Part shown: piece after piece, positions 2,494 to 38,887 of the stretch | Layout of the letters: the number at the start of each line of letters is the position of its first letter | Position numbering within the stretch: the first letter of the stretch is position 1 | Source: a virus | Length of the DNA stretch: 64,000 bases | Direction: 5' to 3' (one strand) | Virus record (IMG/VR): IMGVR_UViG_3300009034_000025 | Location: 1-64,000 of that record | Program-made: the position numbers and the translations under genes | Notes under the pieces: model-generated | Database searches by the model: none | Told to the model about the DNA's origin: nothing | The model's input: only the letters and a program-made list of their open reading frames with translations

Positions 2494-5400
2494 ATGGTTT
2501 GGAATTTGGACAAAAGAGGCAGGAAAGCAAATGTCTATCGCAACAGCGAAATTCCCAGACAATGTAGAGCAGAAATTGCTGCTGTTCCAATTAACTTTTA
2601 TGATGATGTAGCAAAAGAATGGAAGCCCACCGATACTGAACCACAATCCTCGGGCAATCCAGATTACGATTGGGAGATGACCGAGGCAGAATTTCAAGCA
2701 TTTTTCCCTACATTAACTCAAGCACCGATTAAATTTACAGTCGATGATATTATAGGCCATAAAGGTGAAGACCATGAATTCACTCTCGATATATTGGAAG
2801 CATCTTATTGGGATGAAGAAGGTAATGATGATTATTTAGGCAGTCCAGAAGAGGTGACAGGCTCAAAATTAACAAATCCAAATCGGATAATTTATTATGA
2901 TGCTTTCAGTGTGCCGAATGAACTTGAAGTAGATTTGGAATATATTTTGCTTACATTCGGATTAAAAGAATTTATTATTTTAAAAGAAAAACCTCGTGAC
3001 CCCGCAGGATATTTGGTGGGTGTAATAAAGCTTGGATTCAGTGATATTATTGTTCATCCCACAACTGATATGTATGTGGATGATGTAAAAATAACACCAA
3101 GTGGAATACCATTTTTAACACGAAAAAAGATCGTATTTAAAGATTCAAATGAAAATCCAAAATTTGTATTGCCTGAGCCTTTTGCCGAGGATGATAATGG
3201 AGAAATAACTCTTTGCGAATATGAAGTGAAAAAAGTAGGCCAACGAGTTTATTTAACACTTTTAACTCCATGGGATTGGCTTGATGATGCAGGCAGAACT
3301 TATCCTATAAGAATCGATGCCAGCCCTCAAACAATCGGTTCGAGCTGGGATATAGGTATATCACGCAATAACAATACAACAGTTCTCAGTTGGGCAAGTG
3401 CGACAGCGACAACTATATCTGTTGGTTTCCAAGGATTTCCTGTTCCAGCAGGCACAACATTTAGAGCAGGAATTGATTTTACTACTGCCATACTTGACCC
3501 AGATGCCATTAAACAAATAACACGAGTGGATATTAAACTTTGTGTAAATACCACAGATTCGGGTGATGAAATTGATATGGATGAAATGGTGGGTGGCGGT
3601 TTGCCCTATGGAAGAGGTGCAGCAGAAAAATATTATGTCGATAGTAATCCGACAGGATTTTGGAGCGATTGTGATGGCAATACATATCTTTCAGCATCAA
3701 CAGCATTTCAAAGCACTGGTTGGCAACAGGTAACACTTTCATCGCAAGCAGAAACTGATTTATATAATCAACTTGGTCTCGCTTGGTTTACTGTGGGTAT
3801 TACAGCGACAGGTGAAGATTCTGGTATTATGGTATTTCGTTCTGACGATTATCCTGATTATTTTCCTCAAATTATTGTCTGGTATGATGAGTTTATTCTG
3901 TTAGTTGGTTCAATTGCTGGCACATCTACTGTTAGTGGTGCATTAGAAATGGCCATGGATTTAACTGGAACATTAGATGGTCAAGTAACTATCCTTGATG
4001 ATTTATTATCTACCACAATGAAAATTGTAGGCTCATTGGCAGGTCAATCCGATCTAACAGGTGTGCTCAAAAGAATTAAATTTCTTGCAGGCTCACTTGA
4101 TGCTTTATCAGATTTGCCTACCGTATTAATGGATATAAATCCAATGAAACTATTTGGAGATTCAGATGGTCAGGCATCCTTGATCGGCATTTTAAAATTT
4201 GCACCTACAGAATTAATTGGAACTATTGATGCGCAATCGTCACTCCTCGATATTTTATTAACCACAACAATGGAGATTGTTGGTGATATCGATGGACAAG
4301 CAAATTTAACGGCATTATTGAGTAAAAGCTTTTCAATTGCTGGAACGATTGATGGGCAATCCTCTATGGATAATATTTTAATGAAAATGATTATGGAATT
4401 ATATGAATCAACTCCAATTGCAGGTTCAAGCACTTTAACCGGAATATTAAAATTTGTAAAATCATTGAGTGGAACTATTGATGCTCAATCAAATATCCCA
4501 GCTACATTAATGAAATTGACGATGAGATTTAACATTGGAGTTGTTTCAATTGCTGCTACATCGAATGTTGTTGCGGATGCAATTTTATATTTGACAAGGG
4601 AATTAATTGGAGATATTGATGGCTTATCATCTTTGACAGGAATTTTGAAATTAGATGTTGTAAAATTATTCGGCACGATTGATGGGCAAAGTAATTTATT
4701 AACTTCATCATTAGAAATGGCCATGAAGTTGAGTGGCGATCTTGATGGACTAAGTGGTATCACTAATGTTCTTTTGAGTTTGACTATGAAATTTATAGGA
4801 AGCCTTGGTGCCACTTCAACCTTGGCAGGTGTCCTTACTGTTACTGGAGCATTTGTTTTGCTTATTGGAAGCATTGATGCTTTATCAAATCTATCTGGGA
4901 GTTTGGAATTATCAATGTCATTATTTGGAGTTGTAAATGCATTAAGCAATTTGTGGGGGTATTTAGCTATGACACTACCATTGGATGAAAGGCATAAAGC
5001 CACTGTGGAATTGTATTTGGATAATACGAGAATCAAAACTTGGAATAACATAAAAATTGATGCAAGATTAAGTCAACTCAGGGATATTACATTGAGAATT
5101 GGAAATGTGGATGGAAGGTGGACGAAAAGATTTGCTCAATGGCAAGATATTGAAGTAAAATTGAGTTGGGGTGGAACACCAAAGCGTTATTTTATTGGAG
5201 AGATCGATAGAATTACTGAAACACTTTCTAAATATCAAGGCAATGTAATTGACATTCACGGAAGAGATAAAGGTTTGATAATGATGAAAGAGAAAACTGT
5301 GGATGATACTTTTACCGCATACAATCAAATTAATAATGCAAAATCTTTGGAAATTATGGACTTTATTAATTCACAATTATCAACACCTCTTCCATTCATT

Positions 5401-6048
5401 GGACAGTTGAGTGGAAAAGATGCTTTGTTGGATTATGAATTTAATGATGATGATTATACTCTTGATTTATTTAATCGCTTGGCTGAATATGGTGGATATA
5501 GATGGAGAGTTGATGCCAATGGAAAATTAATTGTATTTCCTCAACTTGATTTGGAATCTGCGAATTGCCTTAAAGCCTTCGTGGTAGGTGACAGAAGTGA
5601 TTTCAGTTTGCCTGTTAATAAAGTTGACCAAATCTCAGGATATTCCTTTGGTGAGGATTGGCAAAGAGTTTTTAGTGTATTGAAATTGGTAGGTAAAAAT
5701 GCCACCTTGGTTTTAAGTGATTCAGAAAGCATAGCATTAAATGGTAGAATTGAAGAAAAGGTAAGTGATGATGGACTTACATCAAATGATATTGAAATTG
5801 CTTCAAGAAATAAATTGGATGCACATAAGGAAGCGATTAAAACATTGTCTTTCAAAGGCAGAGGTGACCCTTTAATATCAGTTGGTTCTGTTGTTTATCT
5901 CGATGATATTAAATGGAGATTGAATAAAGAGACTGATAAATATTATGAGATTGTGGGTTTGAGAGATAACATAACAAGAAATGGTTGGATTCAAGATATA
6001 ATGGTTGGATTTGAACAAGAAAGATTCAGTGATTATCTATCAGCTTAA
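2494..6048 (+). CDS. Giant tail-hub protein with internal hydrophobic repeat array
   Basis: The protein has 1184 residues, starting at an ATG after a GAGGGTGA site. Residues 1-465 are beta-rich and end in a DNRLRE-like domain (YPIRIDASP; AWFTVGITATG...PQIIVWYDE). Residues about 468-827 are some 15 imperfect copies of a 21-23 residue unit with consensus L-x-G-T-I-D-G-Q-S-x-L-T-x-I-L-x-x-x-M-K-L. Residues about 830-1184 look like the tail hub family (T4 gp27/P2 gpD/Mu gp44-like): FIGEIDRI, DIHGRDKGLIMMKEK, and a final beta domain with SVGSVVYLDDI. A hub attached to a long repeat array is unusual. The same repeats occur in the gene at 58053. The hub assignment is by pattern; the repeat function is unknown. 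Confidence 0.65.
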   Translation: MVWNLDKRGRKANVYRNSEIPRQCRAEIAAVPINFYDDVAKEWKPTDTEPQSSGNPDYDWEMTEAEFQAFFPTLTQAPIKFTVDDIIGHKGEDHEFTLDILEASYWDEEGNDDYLGSPEEVTGSKLTNPNRIIYYDAFSVPNELEVDLEYILLTFGLKEFIILKEKPRDPAGYLVGVIKLGFSDIIVHPTTDMYVDDVKITPSGIPFLTRKKIVFKDSNENPKFVLPEPFAEDDNGEITLCEYEVKKVGQRVYLTLLTPWDWLDDAGRTYPIRIDASPQTIGSSWDIGISRNNNTTVLSWASATATTISVGFQGFPVPAGTTFRAGIDFTTAILDPDAIKQITRVDIKLCVNTTDSGDEIDMDEMVGGGLPYGRGAAEKYYVDSNPTGFWSDCDGNTYLSASTAFQSTGWQQVTLSSQAETDLYNQLGLAWFTVGITATGEDSGIMVFRSDDYPDYFPQIIVWYDEFILLVGSIAGTSTVSGALEMAMDLTGTLDGQVTILDDLLSTTMKIVGSLAGQSDLTGVLKRIKFLAGSLDALSDLPTVLMDINPMKLFGDSDGQASLIGILKFAPTELIGTIDAQSSLLDILLTTTMEIVGDIDGQANLTALLSKSFSIAGTIDGQSSMDNILMKMIMELYESTPIAGSSTLTGILKFVKSLSGTIDAQSNIPATLMKLTMRFNIGVVSIAATSNVVADAILYLTRELIGDIDGLSSLTGILKLDVVKLFGTIDGQSNLLTSSLEMAMKLSGDLDGLSGITNVLLSLTMKFIGSLGATSTLAGVLTVTGAFVLLIGSIDALSNLSGSLELSMSLFGVVNALSNLWGYLAMTLPLDERHKATVELYLDNTRIKTWNNIKIDARLSQLRDITLRIGNVDGRWTKRFAQWQDIEVKLSWGGTPKRYFIGEIDRITETLSKYQGNVIDIHGRDKGLIMMKEKTVDDTFTAYNQINNAKSLEIMDFINSQLSTPLPFIGQLSGKDALLDYEFNDDDYTLDLFNRLAEYGGYRWRVDANGKLIVFPQLDLESANCLKAFVVGDRSDFSLPVNKVDQISGYSFGEDWQRVFSVLKLVGKNATLVLSDSESIALNGRIEEKVSDDGLTSNDIEIASRNKLDAHKEAIKTLSFKGRGDPLISVGSVVYLDDIKWRLNKETDKYYEIVGLRDNITRNGWIQDIMVGFEQERFSDYLSA
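3898..4974 (+). repeat. Coding tandem repeats, ~22-residue units
   Basis: About 15 degenerate copies of a 63-69 base unit encode G-[ST]-[IL]-D-[GA]-[QL]-S-x-[LI] followed by a hydrophobic segment and M-K-L. Copies differ in almost every codon, so the array is old or has diverged under selection rather than being a recent expansion. Confidence 0.75.
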
Positions 6049-6090
6049 ATATTACGATCTAATAATAATGTTGTATAATCGAGAGAAAAA

Positions 6091-6100
6091 CTTATAATAT
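6091..6100 (+). promoter_or_regulatory. TATA-box candidate for the tRNA transcript
   Basis: An AT-rich box (cttataatat) lies 32-41 bases before the tRNA 5' end. The same core (tataatatcc) recurs in the non-coding regions near 25490 and 44990. Spacing fits an archaeal TATA box with a short leader that contains GAGGTGCGAT. Confidence 0.4.
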
Positions 6101-6131
6101 CCTTAATCTATTACGATTTGAGGTGCGATAT

Positions 6132-7190: not shown

Positions 7191-8586
7191 AGATATTCAA
7201 GAACGATACTTTGGACATAACTTTTGGGAAATTTACAGAAGCCAATTTAATGCAAGGACAATTGGACATCCAGGTTATGCAGATTTAACACTTCATACAA
7301 TCCTTGGGCAAATAGATAACATCAAAAAAATGAGAATAATGGTTGATGAGAATGAAGTAGACTTGCGCATAAGTTCAATTTATTGGAAGCCTTCAGGCAG
7401 TGGCGGTGGACGAGGATATAATTTTACAGCTCAGATTATGAATGGTGTAGCACGCAAGAATAAAGACCATTATCCATTTCAACATATGACCATCGTGAAC
7501 GATGGCTCAGTTGTAGGTTCAATTCGACAAATAAAACAAGTTGACCCTGTATCCAAATCTGAAAAATATGTGACCAATTTTGAATATGGTTGGCTATGGC
7601 CTGGATGGGATATTAATATTCTTGCTCATAATGAAGCTTCAATGTTATTTGATAAATCTAAATTTACTGAGCATTCAAAAAAAGTGGTGCATTTTTTTCA
7701 GATAGCATTGAATCCAATGGGCACTATTGATAATCAGATCGTAAAAAAATTAACATTCGGGGATGCAATACGATACCATCCTGAGTGCTCTGTATTTTTA
7801 ATTTCTTATCCACCACCATATGAGCAATTATTGAAACAATTATTTGGAACAGGGTTTGTTCCCAGATGTGTAGTATTGCATAATGAATTTACGCTTGATG
7901 AACGAAAAGAACACATACAATTATTGACCAAAAAAATAGGTAAGAAAACCAAAAAAATTGGAAGAGTTGGGGATATAATTCAAGCCTTAAAATTTATGAA
8001 TCGATTTTATGAAGGAAAAAAATCATTAGGAATTACCAAAGATGCTCGAGGTGCATTAGATGATATTGTGGAAGAAATATTTAAACCATTATATCAAATG
8101 CCCGAACATTCACGCAAACCACTCGAAGATTTTGCTGCACGATGGATTGAGCATTTATGGAAATGTGCTTGGCACCACGCTTGCACAAGATTATCTTTGG
8201 ATGTTGAAAAACAAGACATCGCTCATGCAAGGGCTTTTATTTTACCTTTATGGAAACACATAGTGTATTTCTGCGAAGATACTTTTATAATTCCAAAACA
8301 CCAAAAGACACGATGGATGAGACATGTTCAATTTATGAAAGTAATCTATGATGCAATCCTTGAAGCCAATCCAAAATATAAAGCGAAAGGTGAAAAGCAA
8401 GATTTTGTTCCCAGAACATTGATGAAGAAAAAACTTGCAAGCAGAGATACAGGTTGGGGTATTTCAGAAGACACTGCATCAAAGAGAATGGCGAAAGCAG
8501 AAAAGGAAGGTTATATGGTGAGAAATTATTTTCACACTACAAAACCTTGGGTGAAATGGATTAATATTCCAAAATGGTTTGATTGA
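7126..8586 (+). CDS. Replication-associated protein, possibly a degenerate MCM/AAA-like helicase
   Basis: 486 residues. A Gly-rich loop near residues 87-94 (PSGSGGGRG) looks like a P-loop but has no Lys. Residues about 335-385 (RKPLEDFAARW...HACTRLSLDVEKQDIAHA) resemble the C-terminal helical lid of MCM and related helicases, where an arginine and an ALA-rich helix precede an EDV-like motif. The last 60 residues (GISEDTASKRMAKAEKEGY) form a winged-helix pattern, as in MCM. If it is a helicase, the Walker A motif is broken, so it could be a helicase-derived DNA-binding protein. Position before the SSB-like and RecA-like genes supports a replication role. The helicase link is weak. Confidence 0.35.
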   Translation: MKKKASQKWQEVIPKWKYPPNKDIQERYFGHNFWEIYRSQFNARTIGHPGYADLTLHTILGQIDNIKKMRIMVDENEVDLRISSIYWKPSGSGGGRGYNFTAQIMNGVARKNKDHYPFQHMTIVNDGSVVGSIRQIKQVDPVSKSEKYVTNFEYGWLWPGWDINILAHNEASMLFDKSKFTEHSKKVVHFFQIALNPMGTIDNQIVKKLTFGDAIRYHPECSVFLISYPPPYEQLLKQLFGTGFVPRCVVLHNEFTLDERKEHIQLLTKKIGKKTKKIGRVGDIIQALKFMNRFYEGKKSLGITKDARGALDDIVEEIFKPLYQMPEHSRKPLEDFAARWIEHLWKCAWHHACTRLSLDVEKQDIAHARAFILPLWKHIVYFCEDTFIIPKHQKTRWMRHVQFMKVIYDAILEANPKYKAKGEKQDFVPRTLMKKKLASRDTGWGISEDTASKRMAKAEKEGYMVRNYFHTTKPWVKWINIPKWFD

Positions 8587-25374: not shown

Positions 25375-26081
25375 GGCCAAAAAACAGGATCGTGATTATT
25401 TTTATTTTTTGAAAAATTATAATAATAACTATTTTGCTTGCATTATTCAACAATATAAGGCCATTTCCTGCATCTTCTCAAAACAGGTATAATATCCCTA
25501 AAATACTGTTGATTTGGGCTAAAATAAGCCCAAAATCCCCATAAAATAATACTACAAAAACCGTATTAACTATACAATAGAAGGTATTATATACCCTCTG
25601 AACAATATAGGTGTTGAGGTGCGATGTGGACTGTGTGAATCTATGCGGTTGGTGACCTGCTCTGACAAGCCTTTTCCCTTTGACGGGCAACAGCAAGAAA
25701 AGCTGAGTGCGATTCCCTTTTGAACTTTGACATTCTCTGACACGATGTCTTTTTTATCTCTGCAAAAAGCGAAAAAGTGGCACGGGAAAAGCAAGGAAAA
25801 CAGATTACTAATTTTACAAACCTTTCGATGATGGGATTGCAACCTGAGAAAGCTGATAAGGTCAGCATCGACACAACATTTGGATGGATGTTGTAATGAA
25901 GTGGCAAAACCCAAAAGCTCACCTGACCTTTGAAGCAATCGAATAGCAAAAAGTTAAGATGGATGGAAATCCTGAAGGTGCAAAAAGTGTTGGTGAAGAA
26001 AATTCGCTGATTGAAAAGGCCTGAAAAATCTTGGTGATTATGCGATGCTCTTATATTAGACTACACTATATGTATTATTTT
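25375..26081 (+). ncRNA. Long non-coding stretch; probable structured RNA from ~25605
   Basis: No convincing gene on either strand over about 700 bases. The first 220 bases are AT-rich and hold a hairpin (tttgggct/agcccaaa, about 25513-25534) and a palindromic TATA-like box (ggtattatatacc, about 25583-25595). About 25 bases later comes GAGGTGCGAT, the same leader as before the tRNA. From there on the sequence has stems: GACAT/ATGTC followed by TTTTTT (about 25729-25755), AAGGTCAG (25858-25865) with CTGACCTT (25923-25930), and inside it ACAACAT/ATGTTGT. A transcribed RNA is likely; an origin function is also possible. Confidence 0.4.
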
Positions 26082-26147
26082 TTTATTTTTTTGTCGGTGA
26101 GTGTAGCTCACCCTGATGAGCCAGAAATGGCGAAACAGAAAAATAAA
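26082..26147 (+). ncRNA. Hammerhead ribozyme 1 (type III layout)
   Basis: All core residues are present. Stem III: 26082-26093 with 26136-26147, 12 pairs. Cleavage site GTC ends at C26095. Stem I: GGTGAG/CTCACC, loop TGTAG. Core CTGATGA at 26113-26119. Stem II: GCCA-GAAA-TGGC. GAAA at 26132-26135. It lies 11 bases before the ATG-bearing region of the gene at 26163, so cleavage would free that messenger. Confidence 0.9.
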
Positions 26148-26162
26148 CAGGAGATGATATGA

Positions 26163-26471
26163 ATGAAGAAAAGAACAATATTGGTTGGAGATCGTGTCCA
26201 AGACAGGAGAACAGGAAAAGTTGGATATATCCGATGGACAAGAGAGACTGAAGTGAATGTCAAATATGATGATGACCCAGTGACAACCTGGGAATGTCCT
26301 GAAGATTTGATATTCCTTGAGCATGGACTGAATGATTACTTCAGGAATATCCTTGAAAGATATATCCGAATAGACCATTGGGTTGAGGGATACCTCAACA
26401 GCGAATATGCATCTGTCTCTGTCCCAATGGAAGCAATCTCAAAGATTGTTTTAGAAGAGGATGATGAATAA
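26163..26471 (+). CDS. Hypothetical SH3-like small protein
   Basis: 102 residues. The first half (LVGDRVQDRRTGKVGYIRW...DLIFLEHG) looks like a small SH3/KOW-type barrel, as in proteins that bind nucleic acid or other proteins. The second half is helical. The gene lies between ribozymes 1 and 2. Confidence 0.65.
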   Translation: MKKRTILVGDRVQDRRTGKVGYIRWTRETEVNVKYDDDPVTTWECPEDLIFLEHGLNDYFRNILERYIRIDHWVEGYLNSEYASVSVPMEAISKIVLEEDDE

Positions 26472-26482
26472 ACATCCTCTAA

Positions 26483-26544
26483 TTATTTTTTGTCGTGGGC
26501 TGTAAGCCCACCTGATGAGCTGGAAACAGCGAAACAGAAAATAA
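26483..26544 (+). ncRNA. Hammerhead ribozyme 2
   Basis: Stem III: 26483-26492 with 26535-26544, 10 pairs. Cleavage site GTC ends at C26494. Stem I: GTGGGC/GCCCAC, loop TGTAA. Core CTGATGA at 26512-26518. Stem II: GCTG-GAAA-CAGC. GAAA at 26531-26534. Stems I and II differ from ribozyme 1 by paired changes, which is good evidence for the fold. Confidence 0.9.
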
Positions 26545-26561
26545 AATAAAGAGGTGAAAAT

Positions 26562-26837
26562 ATGAAAATGGAATACCCAAAAAAAGTATATCGTGATGGA
26601 TATGTGAGTGTGCGAGCAACCTTTACAGATGAAGAGCAACAAAACCCCAATGATGCCTGGTGGAATTTTCAACATCAGTGCAAAGTTGTTTTTGGTGTAG
26701 CACCTGTGGAAGACAACACCATAGGTCAAGTTGTGCAAACCGATAACATAAAGAACAGTGGATATTGCACAGGCCATGTAAATCTGTATGGGTTAAAAGT
26801 GACCCCAATAAACAAGCGATTGAAAGAAATCGCTTGA
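26562..26837 (+). CDS. Hypothetical protein
   Basis: 91 residues after GAGGTGA. Mixed composition with aromatic residues (NPNDAWWNFQHQCKVVFGV). It stands alone between ribozymes 2 and 3. Not recognised. Confidence 0.65.
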   Translation: MKMEYPKKVYRDGYVSVRATFTDEEQQNPNDAWWNFQHQCKVVFGVAPVEDNTIGQVVQTDNIKNSGYCTGHVNLYGLKVTPINKRLKEIA

Positions 26838-26846
26838 ATCTTTTTA

Positions 26847-26912
26847 TTTTTTGATGTCCGAGGGTGCGTGCCCTCGCTGATGATGATTCAAAAGAATCGA
26901 AACATCAGAAAA
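26847..26912 (+). ncRNA. Hammerhead ribozyme 3 (one core insertion)
   Basis: Stem III: 26847-26856 with 26903-26912, with an inserted GATG/CATC section. Cleavage GTC ends at C26858. Stem I: CGAGGG/CCCTCG, loop TGCGTG. Core CTGATGA at 26877-26883 followed by one extra T (26884). Stem II: GATTC-AAAA-GAATC. GAAA at 26899-26902. The extra T between the core and stem II may slow cleavage. Confidence 0.8.
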
Positions 26913-26934
26913 AATAAAATGGAGCGTGAAAAAT

Positions 26935-27054
26935 ATGAGAAAAAAATCAAAGAATGATTGGATATATAAGGCCAATCTGAAAAGTGTCTATGAGCGTGTG
27001 ATGAACACAAACGATTACCTGAATGGATGGAAATCCATAGGGGTGAAAGCATGA
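26935..27054 (+). CDS. Small basic protein
   Basis: 39 residues from the ATG after GGAGCGTGAA. It starts RKKSKNDW and is helical. Its TGA overlaps the next ATG (ATGA), supporting real translation. Confidence 0.55.
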   Translation: MRKKSKNDWIYKANLKSVYERVMNTNDYLNGWKSIGVKA

Positions 27055-27350
27055 AAGTTGAAACTGAAGTGAGCCGAAAAGAAATAATTGGCACATCAAG
27101 AATTGGTGTGTTTTCGAAAAATGTCACCATCAAAAAAATCAGGTCTGTATTCGGAAAAGATATTGGATGCAGTAGTGATGGCAAAACAACCCACGAGTGG
27201 ATTTCTAAAATTGATGGTGAAATTGTCACTATCTATGATTACAAGGGTGACAGATGGCATGTCGGTGGCAAAGTATCGTGGTATAAGAGAGAAAAATTGG
27301 TGGCAAAAGTAAAAACTCTTTTGGGAATAAACAATGAGGTGAATGAGTGA
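27051..27350 (+). CDS. Hypothetical protein
   Basis: 99 residues from the ATG after GGGGTGAAAGC; an upstream in-frame ATG at 27027 lacks a good site. Beta-rich, with GRDxG-like turns (FGKDIGCSSDGKTTHEW). Unknown. Confidence 0.65.
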   Translation: MKVETEVSRKEIIGTSRIGVFSKNVTIKKIRSVFGKDIGCSSDGKTTHEWISKIDGEIVTIYDYKGDRWHVGGKVSWYKREKLVAKVKTLLGINNEVNE

Positions 27351-27457
27351 AATATCGCTGTAAGAATTGCGGACACGGATTTGAATGCCTCGATAAACCA
27401 CTCACTTACAAAAGTGCGATCTGTCCGAAATGTGGAAATTTTGGAGAGATAATATAA
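27347..27457 (+). CDS. Zinc-ribbon peptide
   Basis: 36 residues from a GTG 5 bases after GAGGTGA, overlapping the previous stop. Four cysteines in two CxxC pairs (CKNCGHGF...CPKCG) make a compact zinc ribbon. Confidence 0.65.
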   Translation: MKYRCKNCGHGFECLDKPLTYKSAICPKCGNFGEII

Positions 27458-27476
27458 AATTTAACCTCAATTTTTA

Positions 27477-27551
27477 TTTTTTGTCACAGGAGATACAGCC
27501 TGTCTGATGAGCCGGAAGGCCATAGGGTGATAAGGTCACCGAAACAAAAGA
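27477..27551 (+). ncRNA. Hammerhead ribozyme 4 with extra hairpin
   Basis: Stem III is about 7 pairs (27477-27483 with 27545-27551). Cleavage GTC ends at C27485. Stem I: ACAGG/CCTGT. Core CTGATGA at 27504-27510. A short stem II (GCC-GGAA-GGC) is followed by 20 extra bases containing a hairpin GGTGA/TCACC, and then GAAA at 27541-27544. The insertion between stem II and GAAA is unusual and may disable the ribozyme or make it controllable. Confidence 0.6.
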
Positions 27552-27560
27552 GGTGAGAAA

Positions 27561-29051
27561 TTGCCAAGAAAAAGCAAAAAGAAAAGCAGGAAAATTGCAA
27601 AGGGCAAAAAGCCCAAAGTGTCCAAAGGAAAGAAAACAACCGCAAAAAAGTCAGCGGTGAAAAAGCAGGCCAAAGCGAAAAAAACCACTGCAAAGAAATC
27701 CACGAAAAAGGAAGAGCCCAAACCAGAAATGCCTTGGGAAAAGAATGGTGTGGTTTGGCTTGATGGATTGCGAGATGCGAGTGGTGCAATCAAAGGAAAG
27801 CCCACCATAATGCATGTTTGGGGTGACTACATTGACCTTACACCTGTCATCTCCAGCGGTGAAGAAAAAACAGAGGGCACGGTGACCATCAGAGATATGG
27901 ATGGAAAAGAGCATAAGGCAAGGGTCAAGGATATGGCCACATTCAAACCACTTCTGTGGAAACATGATTTCGATGACATGAAAAAAATTGTTGGGAAATC
28001 AAGAGCACAGATGTATAAGGTTTTGAAGGATGAGGTCATTCCATTTCCCAGATCGCAGAACCATCCAGGCAGTCCATTGTGCTTCAAAATAGTCATCGAC
28101 AAGGAAAATGGCAATTGGCTTTTGGGTAATAACACCAAAAGATGGACACCTATCAAAGCTGATGATTATATTGGCTTGGTTAGGAATACCGTTAAGCCTT
28201 TTGATGGCGATGTGAACATCACACGCAGTGATGGAATCCACGGTGGACATATCTCAGTGAAATTCCCAAAGCAAGAGCTTTTCAGCACAAATCTTGACAT
28301 CGATTTCGGCAGATTTGATGGATACCACGCAATTCACATCAAAGGTGGATCGCAAATTCTTGCATGCCTGAATCAGTTGTCTTTTGATGTTGGCGCAAAA
28401 ATGAAGCCCATAGTCAAACTGGGATTCACCAAGCGCAGACTTCATGAAGGCACAGTGGAAGAGTTCACGGCAGAGCTGACCGCAGTCATCGATGCGTTAA
28501 AGCAAATTGGTGGTGTGCTCAGTGCTTCCAAGAGACAAAAAGTTGCAGCAAATACTGCTGTCGAGATAATCGATTATTACAGACACATTGGTTGGCTCAC
28601 AGCCAAAACTGAAGAGCTTGTCAAATCCATGATAGGCAATCCCATTGTGTTTGGAAAGTTGAAAAAAGCTGAAGCAGTAAAACTACAGGGCACAGTTTAT
28701 GAGCTTGCAATGATTGCTACCTATATTGGAACACACAATGAAGAGGTCAAAAGTGAGCACTCACAATATGACCTGAAGCGAATGGGTGGTGAGCTTATCG
28801 CCTGCTCAACAAGCCACAAGGAATATCTGAAAATCGTCAGAGACTATAACAAGGAATGGACTGAGAGAGAAAAGAAAAGACAGGAAGAGCTTAAGAAAAA
28901 GGCCAAAAAGGAAGCTAAAAAGGATACACCCAAAAAGGCTCAGAAACAGCCCAAGGCTGCATCCAAGCCCAAAGGTAAGGGTAAGGGTAAGGTCAAGGAT
29001 AAAAAGCGCAAGAGCACAAAGAAAACTACCAAGAAAGCGAAATCTGCATGA
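27561..29051 (+). CDS. Large Lys-rich-ended protein of unknown function
   Basis: 496 residues from a TTG 5 bases after GAGGTGAG. The first 50 and last 90 residues are almost only Lys, Ala, Thr and Pro, similar to histone tails. The core (about 55-400) is folded: PTIMHVWGDYIDLTPVIS, a beta section with NITRSDGIHGGHISVKF, and a helical section. Base composition is more GC-rich than the neighbouring small genes. Such tails suggest abundant binding to nucleic acid, for example packaging or chromatin-like coating. No family recognised. Confidence 0.7.
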   Translation: MPRKSKKKSRKIAKGKKPKVSKGKKTTAKKSAVKKQAKAKKTTAKKSTKKEEPKPEMPWEKNGVVWLDGLRDASGAIKGKPTIMHVWGDYIDLTPVISSGEEKTEGTVTIRDMDGKEHKARVKDMATFKPLLWKHDFDDMKKIVGKSRAQMYKVLKDEVIPFPRSQNHPGSPLCFKIVIDKENGNWLLGNNTKRWTPIKADDYIGLVRNTVKPFDGDVNITRSDGIHGGHISVKFPKQELFSTNLDIDFGRFDGYHAIHIKGGSQILACLNQLSFDVGAKMKPIVKLGFTKRRLHEGTVEEFTAELTAVIDALKQIGGVLSASKRQKVAANTAVEIIDYYRHIGWLTAKTEELVKSMIGNPIVFGKLKKAEAVKLQGTVYELAMIATYIGTHNEEVKSEHSQYDLKRMGGELIACSTSHKEYLKIVRDYNKEWTEREKKRQEELKKKAKKEAKKDTPKKAQKQPKAASKPKGKGKGKVKDKKRKSTKKTTKKAKSA

Positions 29052-29087
29052 GGGGAATAATACCCCTCATCTTTTTTCTTATTTTTT
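29048..29087 (+). terminator. Hairpin plus T-tract terminator
   Basis: ATGAGGGG (29048-29055) pairs with CCCCTCAT (29063-29070), followed by a 17-base T-rich run. It overlaps the stop codon of the preceding gene. Confidence 0.75.
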
Positions 29088-29093
29088 CAACAA

Positions 29094-29124
29094 CACCGAA
29101 CACGGTTAAAATCCGTAATCGGTG
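29094..29124 (+). promoter_or_regulatory. Leader hairpin before the gene at 29139
   Basis: CACCGA (29094-29099) pairs with TCGGTG (29119-29124), with an inner ACGG/CCGT stem. It occupies the place where ribozymes stand before other genes of this region but lacks a hammerhead core. The downstream site GAGGTGA follows directly. Confidence 0.45.
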
Positions 29125-29138
29125 AGTGAGGTGAGATA

Positions 29139-29357
29139 TTGAGCAAAAAGGATGAGTTTGTGAAGGCTTTCAAAAAAGCCAACAATGGAGTGCATCCAAA
29201 GAAAATGCATGAGCAAAAATTGTATTCGGAATTTGCTGAAATTTTAAACAGCAAACCACATCTCAAAATTCTATTCTATGAGGCCTGGGATGAGGAGAGC
29301 GGAAAGGACACTGACCCTGCTGCTGGTTTGGGACAACTCTTCGATCTTAATAAATAA
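29139..29357 (+). CDS. Small hypothetical protein
   Basis: 72 residues from a TTG 4 bases after GAGGTGA. Helical and charged (EFVKAFKKANNG). Unknown. Confidence 0.6.
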   Translation: MSKKDEFVKAFKKANNGVHPKKMHEQKLYSEFAEILNSKPHLKILFYEAWDEESGKDTDPAAGLGQLFDLNK

Positions 29358-29363
29358 TCGGCA

Positions 29364-29437
29364 ACAGGGTTAATCCCTGTCTGGCGATGTGTATCGCCAC
29401 TGAAGATTCCGAAAGGATGAAACAGAAAAAAATAAAC
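29364..29437 (+). ncRNA. Degenerate hammerhead-like element 5
   Basis: Cleavage triplet GTC (29379-29381), stem I TGGCGAT/ATCGCCA, core CTGAAGA (29400-29406, variable position 7 is A), a short stem II around a GAAA loop and GAAA at 29419-29422 can be placed. However, stem III is only CTG/CAG, and its 5' strand can form a competing hairpin ACAGGG/CCCTGT. The 3' flank cagaaaaaaataaa matches the other copies, so this is probably a decayed or altered copy. Confidence 0.5.
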
Positions 29438-37382: not shown

Positions 37383-37940
37383 ATGCCCAAAAAAATGGAT
37401 GTTCAACAGCGTAGAGAGGTCAGAACAAAAAAAAGAAGAGTGCCAAAAGTGCAGTGTCAAATGTGTGGTAAAATAGTGAGAGCCACAAAGATAAAAATGC
37501 TTCCATTCAAATCCAAGCGTGAAGGAATGGAGCATTTCAATTTAAAAGTTTGCCGTGAATGTTATAATCGAGAGATGGAAGCCAGAAAAAAAGGACAAGC
37601 TTCCAATCAAGCTGAAGAAAGATTAAAACAAATTCAAGATGCAAAACCAAAACCTGAACCTGAACCTGAAATAAAAGAACCAATACCACAATCTTTGGAA
37701 AATGACAAAGATATTGCCGGATTCATTCATAAATTGTTAAGGATTAATGAAGATGATATACCAATCTACAAAAGAGAACATGGAGAAATAACGATAGATG
37801 CAAATCGATTATCCTTGATATGTAAGAATACTCTCGGTGCCGATCTAATGAGAGAGGTGCAGCAAATGTCAGGTGAAGGCAAATGTTATGAAGTCAATAT
37901 TAAATCTATAAAGTTTGAATATAAATTGAAGCATCCTTGA
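37383..37940 (+). CDS. Zinc-ribbon protein with acidic/proline linker
   Basis: 185 residues from the ATG after GTAGGTGATTTG. A basic start, then CQMCGK...CRECYN zinc ribbon (about residues 25-62), a Pro-Glu linker (KPKPEPEPEIKEP), and a C-terminal mixed domain. Possibly a DNA-binding regulator. Confidence 0.65.
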   Translation: MPKKMDVQQRREVRTKKRRVPKVQCQMCGKIVRATKIKMLPFKSKREGMEHFNLKVCRECYNREMEARKKGQASNQAEERLKQIQDAKPKPEPEPEIKEPIPQSLENDKDIAGFIHKLLRINEDDIPIYKREHGEITIDANRLSLICKNTLGADLMREVQQMSGEGKCYEVNIKSIKFEYKLKHP

Positions 37941-37949
37941 GGTGAAAGA

Positions 37950-38687
37950 ATGGAAAGATTTTTACCAAAGATTGATACAGAAGCGATCCAAAAACAAATT
38001 TCGAGGTATCGAGGATTAAATGAAGAACCAAAAACAGTGGATAAAGAATTTCTTATGAGCACTATTGAAAACCCTATTGATTTTAAAAAAAGGAAAGTGG
38101 GCAAGTATCGAATTGAAATTGATATTCAATTAAAAGGTCAACCAATGACAGTAGTGTCTTGGCGAAATTTTTTAATGATGGGTTATAGACCTACACAAGT
38201 GATTATGCCTGAAAATCGATATGTTCATAAACTCATAAAAGATGGTCAAGGATTATTAATGAGCGATAGTCCACAAGAAATGTTTTTGCAATACGAAGCC
38301 TACAAAGCAGCAAGGGGCAGAGTGCTCATTGGGGGATTGGGATTGGGAATGTTTACGGCAATGGCAGCAAAAAAGTCAGAGGTCACTGAAATAATTGTAA
38401 TAGAAATTGAAGAAGATATTATTGATTTAATTGAGTTTGAGCATCCAAAGGTTAAGATTATTTGTGATGATATTTGGCGATTTCTGCGGACAACTGCTGA
38501 TACAAAGTTTGATTTTATTTATATTGATATTCATTATTCAACAGGTTGCAAAGAATATATTAATACTGTATTACCTATGCGGAAGATTTTGGAAAAAAGA
38601 TTTCCAAATATTCCAGCTATGTTCTGGGGTGAAAAAGAAATGGAAGCACAATACGATCCTGATTTTGAAAAAGAGGTGAAACAGTGA
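37950..38687 (+). CDS. Spermidine-synthase-like SAM-binding protein
   Basis: 245 residues. The second half has GRVLIGGLGLGMFTAMAAKK (SAM-binding motif I), IIVIEIEEDIIDLI (acidic strand), KIICDDIWRFL and FDFIYIDIHYSTG, the layout of spermidine synthase and related methyltransferases. The first half is unique. The substrate is not clear; polyamine synthesis or a methyl transfer are possible. Confidence 0.65.
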   Translation: MERFLPKIDTEAIQKQISRYRGLNEEPKTVDKEFLMSTIENPIDFKKRKVGKYRIEIDIQLKGQPMTVVSWRNFLMMGYRPTQVIMPENRYVHKLIKDGQGLLMSDSPQEMFLQYEAYKAARGRVLIGGLGLGMFTAMAAKKSEVTEIIVIEIEEDIIDLIEFEHPKVKIICDDIWRFLRTTADTKFDFIYIDIHYSTGCKEYINTVLPMRKILEKRFPNIPAMFWGEKEMEAQYDPDFEKEVKQ

Positions 38688-38887
38688 GTTGTTGTAGTGG
38701 CAATACGATTGGGAATTATTGCAAACGAAGATGTTCAAATTGTAAGCAGATCGATGCTTGCGGATATTTGGCATTGCTTCGAGATGCATATGTTTGTATG
38801 GATGTGACTGCTTGTGATAAAGGAAGCGGATTTGAAAGCACACATAAATTTATGAAAGGAAAATTTAAATGTAAGGTGAAAAAATGA
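38684..38887 (+). CDS. Cys-rich small protein
   Basis: 67 residues from GTG after GAGGTGAAACA. Nine cysteines (SCCSGNTIGNYCKRRCSNC...). Typical of phage Cys-rich proteins that bind zinc. Unknown. Confidence 0.6.
   Translation: MSCCSGNTIGNYCKRRCSNCKQIDACGYLALLRDAYVCMDVTACDKGSGFESTHKFMKGKFKCKVKK

Follow-up and report, generated by a model that had tools for sequence, protein, structure and literature searches.

Clustered hammerhead ribozymes flank single genes in prophages, where they were proposed to process transcripts into operon- or gene-length mRNAs; cleavage has been shown in vitro for three tandem prophage arrays, and in E. coli for one (Perreault et al. 2011, PMC3088659). In the archaeal viruses HF1 and HF2, the hammerhead HHphage lies 13 nucleotides (nt) upstream of the helicase start, and an HF2 transcript has its 5' end mapped to within 3 nt of this hammerhead's cleavage site (PMC3088659). 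Small self-cleaving ribozymes are found in viral genomes without a settled function. Here we analyze a 64,000-nt stretch of viral DNA (the window; positions 1 to 64,000 of IMG/VR record IMGVR_UViG_3300009034_000025), in which a series of five predicted type III hammerheads, elements 1 to 5, occupies the coding strand between successive genes. We consider it probable that these ribozymes self-cleave a multi-gene viral transcript at gene boundaries.

Like the prophage clusters, this locus contains several closely spaced hammerheads flanking single genes or short blocks, with the same proposed role. The prophage clusters are bacterial and their cleavage has been shown (PMC3088659), whereas the present cluster belongs to a probable archaeal virus and its cleavage is predicted; it also differs in having up to five type III copies, in which stem III pairs the U-rich end of a gene with an A-rich leader. 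HHphage, carried by the tailed archaeal viruses HF1 and HF2, likewise closely precedes a start codon. However, it is single, type II, and has a core insertion known only from saltern sequences, while the elements described here are type III and serial, have a consensus core, and come from a virus of non-halophilic protein composition. The HF2 hammerhead (NC_003345, 10292-10359) is annotated as type II in its record, and Rfam confirmed this. The initial annotation of the window named serial use between genes of an archaeal virus as apparently new, which overstates the novelty given the prophage clusters and the HF1/HF2 hammerhead published in 2011 (PMC3088659) and the two type II hammerheads around one gene in a haloarchaeal-type virus record described below. 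Within the open-access library searched, no paper described an archaeal virus with serial hammerheads; the concept is known, and what is new is the host group, the copy number, the type III form and the gene-end/leader stem III.

Five hammerheads form a single cluster

To search for hammerheads we used a covariance model, R1, trained on elements 1 and 2 together with three type III hammerheads from other viral contigs; elements 3, 4, and 5 were outside the training set. Searching the whole 68,225-base record with R1 returned five sites with scores of 80.8, 80.0, 51.0, 31.2, and 30.7 bits (E-values from 1e-19 to 1e-5), all within one 3.4-kb cluster, and no hammerhead elsewhere in the record. 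Applied to 483 kb of distantly related viral sequence, the same model gave a best match of 15.7 bits with an E-value of 1.5. The window has five matches to the pattern CTGATGA-N6..36-GAAAC, where 0.53 would be expected, and none of 100 shuffles reached five. Four of these strict-core occurrences are named elements; the fifth, at 2249, lies within a coding region and fails the stem check. The elements are as follows:

26084..26145, + strand: element 1, canonical type III, predicted cut after C26095; R1 80.0 bits (training member), RF00008 46.7 bits (E-value 2.5e-8)
26483..26544, + strand: element 2, canonical type III, predicted cut after C26494; R1 80.8 bits (training member), RF00008 33.8 bits (42.7 in another search)
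26841..26919, + strand: element 3, near-canonical type III, predicted cut after C26858; R1 51.0 bits (outside training)
27474..27554, + strand: element 4, core with stems I and III, site after C27485; R1 31.2 bits (E-value 9.6e-6)
29370..29432, + strand: element 5, degenerate hammerhead, site would be C29381; R1 30.7 bits (E-value 1.3e-5), RF00008 31.6 bits

The elements share the core, GUC site, three helices and type III order of the Rfam model Hammerhead_3 (RF00008). The type III search suggested in the initial annotation did match elements 1, 2, and 5, but even the best of them, at 46.7 bits, falls below the gathering score of 48.5 bits, which is the cut-off of one library model and not a structural criterion. 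Because all RF00008 scores are below gathering, a default Rfam scan misses the elements, and because default thresholds miss such copies the class is probably under-counted in viral metagenomes. A control genome, that of Methanosarcina acetivorans, also gave an RF00008 match below the cut-off, which may be due to chance.

The elements range from canonical to degenerate

The common layout consists of a U-rich arm, GUC, a stem I hairpin, CUGANGA, a stem II hairpin, GAAA, and C followed by an A-rich arm and a ribosome-binding site; element 5, which has lost the U-rich arm, is the exception. The type III core, taking the consensus C3 U4 G5 A6 N7 G8 A9 / G12 A13 A14 A15 / U16 H17 (PMC3088659), is present in all five elements. 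The pairs adjacent to the core (10.1-11.1, 1.1-2.1, and 15.1-16.1) are formed in elements 1 and 2, and in element 3 only with a bulged U; element 4 has a stem II split by an insert, and element 5 has a U-U at 10.1-11.1.

Folding of elements 1-3 beats every shuffle, with z-scores of -4.6 to -5.2, and the minimum free energy (MFE) structures of element 1 (z -4.8) and element 2 (z -4.6) are the hammerhead fold. In element 3 a complementary GAT/ATC insertion lengthens stem III on both sides, and an extra unpaired U lies between A9 and stem II. Its best predicted fold pairs the core CUGAUG with CAUCAG, at -28.0 kcal/mol versus -23.5 kcal/mol with the core kept free. A 19-nt insert turns stem II of element 4 into two adjacent hairpins, and the fold of this element (z -1.9) is not conspicuous against shuffles; element 4 is probably impaired. 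Within window 27517-27556, the insert hairpin, GGTGA...TCACC, has a 3' side, TCACC, that could instead pair with the downstream ribosome-binding site GAGGTGAG. Element 5 combines the U-U mismatch with a stem III of only 3 base pairs, and its 5' arm is held in a CAGGG/CCCTG hairpin; its z-score is -3.0, but the MFE structure lacks stem III and is not a hammerhead. The A-rich leader of element 5 is nearly identical to that of element 1. Measured against the filters that Perreault et al. 2011 applied (PMC3088659), elements 1 and 2 qualify, element 3 is borderline, element 5 fails, and element 4 has no regular stem II.

Judged by these models, the set is two canonical, one near-canonical, and two degenerate hammerheads. 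The type III assignment made initially is supported, and the cleavage sites given for the first four elements (C26095, C26494, C26858, and C27485) are exact in the sequence, as are their coordinates. The same annotation credited four elements with the core and three stems. This holds for elements 1, 2, and 3, the last with its extra U and competing fold, and fails for element 4 at stem II; its description of the fifth element as degenerate was correct.

Stems I and II covary between copies

Stems I and II differ almost entirely between copies and pairing is kept. Standard pairs make up 90.9% of the paired cells in the five-copy alignment, a percentage that leans upward since the alignments are model-fitted. 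Both-sided changes affect 12 of 18 pairs and 22 cells, versus 7.3 cells in shuffles; the paired changes in stems I and II noted initially are confirmed. The covariation score is 0.744 versus 0.230 in shuffled alignments (0 of 500 shuffles), and at most 0.172 with partners slid. An alignment of 17 sites from several viruses gave 94.9% pairing, with the same upward lean, 81 double changes versus 22.5, and a score of 0.737. The slid and shuffled controls nonetheless separate clearly from the real alignments, and the five copies display three covarying helices with stem III open. On modelled structure and covariation, the hammerheads are real. A chance origin of the cluster, already dismissed in the initial annotation, is ruled out by the pattern counts and their shuffles, the R1 matches, the 483-kb control, and covariation.

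Placement between stop and start codons

The genes around the elements are:

26163..26471, + strand: gene A, open reading frame (ORF), 102 amino acids (aa), weak PHROG match of unknown function
26562..26837, + strand: gene B, ORF, 91 aa, no Pfam or PHROG match
26935-27054, + strand: gene C, 39 aa, read from sequence
27051-27350, + strand: gene D, 99 aa, read from sequence (longer frame in the ORF list)
27347-27457, + strand: gene E, 36 aa, Cys-rich, zinc-ribbon-like, read from sequence
27561..29051, + strand: gene F, ORF, 496 aa, lysine-rich ends, no phage homologue and no kin in the viral_contigs collection
29079..29130, + strand: the same U-rich tract ahead of gene G, with an unrelated hairpin in place of a hammerhead, fold z -3.1
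29139..29357, + strand: gene G, ORF, 72 aa
29451..29687, + strand: gene H, ORF, 78 aa, start codon 69 nt past the element 5 site

All five elements lie directly before a ribosome-binding site, as had been proposed, and four of them also follow a stop codon directly, the exception being element 1, which lacks a clear gene immediately upstream. In elements 2-5 the distance from the upstream stop codon to the predicted cut is 21-28 nt (23 nt past the gene A stop for element 2 and 21 nt past the gene B stop for element 3), and the next start codon is 67-76 nt downstream of the predicted cut in all five (67 nt for gene A). Five coding-strand hammerheads are thus placed serially between successive genes in 3.4 kb. 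The starts and stops of genes C, D, and E overlap, and these three genes share one leader with no hammerhead between them. Cutting at every site would be predicted to yield the pieces A, B, C-D-E, F-G, and H onward. The expectation that the operon message would be cut into strictly single-gene pieces is therefore not upheld, as C-D-E and the start of gene G lack a hammerhead.

Proposed processing of the transcript and alternative explanations

In the mechanism we propose, RNA polymerase would read through the gene boundary, and the U-rich tract after the stop codon would pair with the A-rich tract before the next ribosome-binding site, forming stem III. Stems I and II would form between the arms of stem III, which would hold the gene end and leader together until the RNA is cut after GUC. 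The upstream message would then end in the U-tract with a 2',3'-cyclic phosphate, and the downstream message would begin with a 5'-OH, a stem-I hairpin cap, and the freed A-rich leader before its ribosome-binding site. The U-rich arm would accordingly double as the 3' end of a gene and the A-rich arm as a leader. From the structural models, elements 1 and 2 should cut efficiently, element 3 probably cuts partly or slowly, and elements 4 and 5 are predicted to cut poorly or not at all. With good, altered, and decayed copies together in one transcript, the locus is a natural test set for the effect of cutting on expression.

We infer self-cleavage and message processing from strong precedent. 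Cleavage within the transcript is favoured because of the regular placement, the covariation, the R1 matches, and the prophage and HF2 examples; hammerheads at the same stop-to-start position also recur in other viral contigs. Several points weigh against this interpretation. Three of the five copies (elements 3-5) are non-ideal, the gene boundaries within C-D-E and before G would be left uncut, and the U- and A-rich arms common to the copies may serve mainly in some other role. For locus-by-locus conservation, neither gene F nor PolB alone identified close relatives in viral_contigs, and alignments of PolB and RFC proteins reached only distant, mostly haloviral records, which had no type III hammerheads.

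One such role could be transcription termination. The U-tracts may be archaeal terminators, acting with aCPSF1/FttA as the main source of 3' ends, with the hammerheads acting on read-through RNA or surviving as relics. In Methanococcus, aCPSF1 binds terminator U-tracts and cuts RNA 3' ends, and its Lokiarchaeota and Thaumarchaeota orthologues behave similarly (PMC8716108). The + strand of the window has 10 copies of TATTTTTT, of which 7 are concentrated in short non-coding stretches of 25.4-29.1 kb. Two of the non-coding places, 25396 and 29079, have the U-tract after a gene but no hammerhead. The first of these is:

25396..25411, + strand: TTATTTTTATTTTTTG tract, 21 nt past the RFC-large stop, no hammerhead, possible archaeal U-tract terminator

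We regard this explanation as unlikely, since it offers no account of why stems I and II covary around a catalytic core that stays fixed; moreover, a U-tract and a hammerhead can both be functional, and the host may not be archaeal. The TTATTTTTATTTTTTG tract also begins a region of about 700 bases after the RFC-large gene (window 25375-26060) that has no + strand reading frame.

The hammerheads could alternatively be copies, now decaying and of little function, of an element that was duplicated or mobile. Elements 3-5 depart from the consensus, element 5 retains the A-rich leader of element 1 almost unchanged and has lost the U-rich arm, and all copies lie in the one 3.4-kb cluster. We consider this reading very unlikely. 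Stems I and II are nearly all changed between copies and still paired, which requires selection on structure. Every copy is also positioned just before a ribosome-binding site, and four of the five just after a stop codon. There is also a slim chance that the five ribozymes are graded, some of them regulated, with cutting and leader release adjusting the genes one by one, perhaps when a signal is present. Elements 1 and 2 would then be the predicted fast cutters and element 3 a bistable one, its core pairing with its own stem III arm, and the inserted hairpin in element 4 and the hairpin over the cleavage site in element 5 would be added structures.

Virus and host

The best full-length matches of PolB, RFC-small, and RFC-large are to the haloarchaeal Druskaviridae, which are tailed viruses, and an ERCC4 nuclease domain and a TFIIIC B-block-like domain are also present. 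A GAGGTGA-type motif, which fits archaeal start sites, dominates upstream of the genes. The terminase and portal are of the tailed-virus type, so archaeal-type replication genes occur together with tailed-virus packaging genes. The protein composition (D+E 14%, K+R 13%) is not acid-rich as in halophiles. From these sequence features the host is likely archaeal and non-halophilic; the initial annotation had likewise called this an archaeal virus, and PolB, both RFC proteins, and the GAGGTGA-type ribosome-binding sites make that likely. Alternatively, the virus could infect a bacterium and be another phage with serial hammerheads, which would change the host and remain compatible with the proposed processing. 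The portal is closest to bacterial phages (about 33% identity), and other viral contigs, whose unassigned hosts may be bacterial, also carry type III hammerheads in series. Set against the replication proteins, the ERCC4 and TFIIIC-like domains, and the dominant ribosome-binding motif, a bacterial host seems improbable to us. The five-copy run with its regular stop-cut-start spacing, being in a probable archaeal virus, suggests that serial intergenic hammerheads are not confined to bacterial phages. No tRNAs were found in the window. A scan of cellular genomes for a provirus, using an arm-plus-core pattern, returned one unrelated Colwellia contig without a model match.

Hammerheads in other viral records

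A second haloarchaeal-type virus record, IMGVR_UViG_2639762639_000001 (L090), contains:

1501-1567 and 2454-2524: two type II hammerheads flanking a Band_7 (stomatin-like) gene

Both are above Rfam gathering (48.7 and 37.7 bits), and each lies just past a stop and before the next ATG; the Band_7 protein has phage-collection matches only in haloviruses. L090 thus resembles the present locus in that its hammerheads are serial and each occupies a stop-to-start interval, but differs in hammerhead type (II), in having two copies, and in belonging to a different virus group. Together the two cases suggest more than one origin for the arrangement, each from a different hammerhead type.

Nine further viral contigs contain type III hammerheads whose 3' arms are CAG-A-rich, three of these contigs having two copies. 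The viral contigs L097, L099-L101, and L105 (several of about 60 kb) carry related hammerheads of type III in which stem III is a short CUG/CAG helix; L099, L100, and L101 have two copies each, and in L097 and L099 a GC-rich hairpin directly precedes the site, as in element 5. The contig family of L006 (kin L016, L019, L032, L034, and L042) has serial hammerheads between genes, among them some that follow ATPase-like and other genes and have the type I order, with stem I open; those of L006 lie at 3472-3538, ~6037-6125, and 7742-7810 on the - strand. Of the 44 contigs that the first collection scan returned, most did not pass the stem check.

The elements are not counterparts of the HF2 promoter repeats, which are AT-rich promoters (PMC8707807), the HF2 hammerhead being separate and single. 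The hammerhead-bearing HF2 genome (L052) also encodes a tRNA-splicing-type RNA ligase at 37516-38880. Hammerheads make 5'-OH and 2',3'-cyclic phosphate ends, which are the ends that ligases of the RtcB type join.

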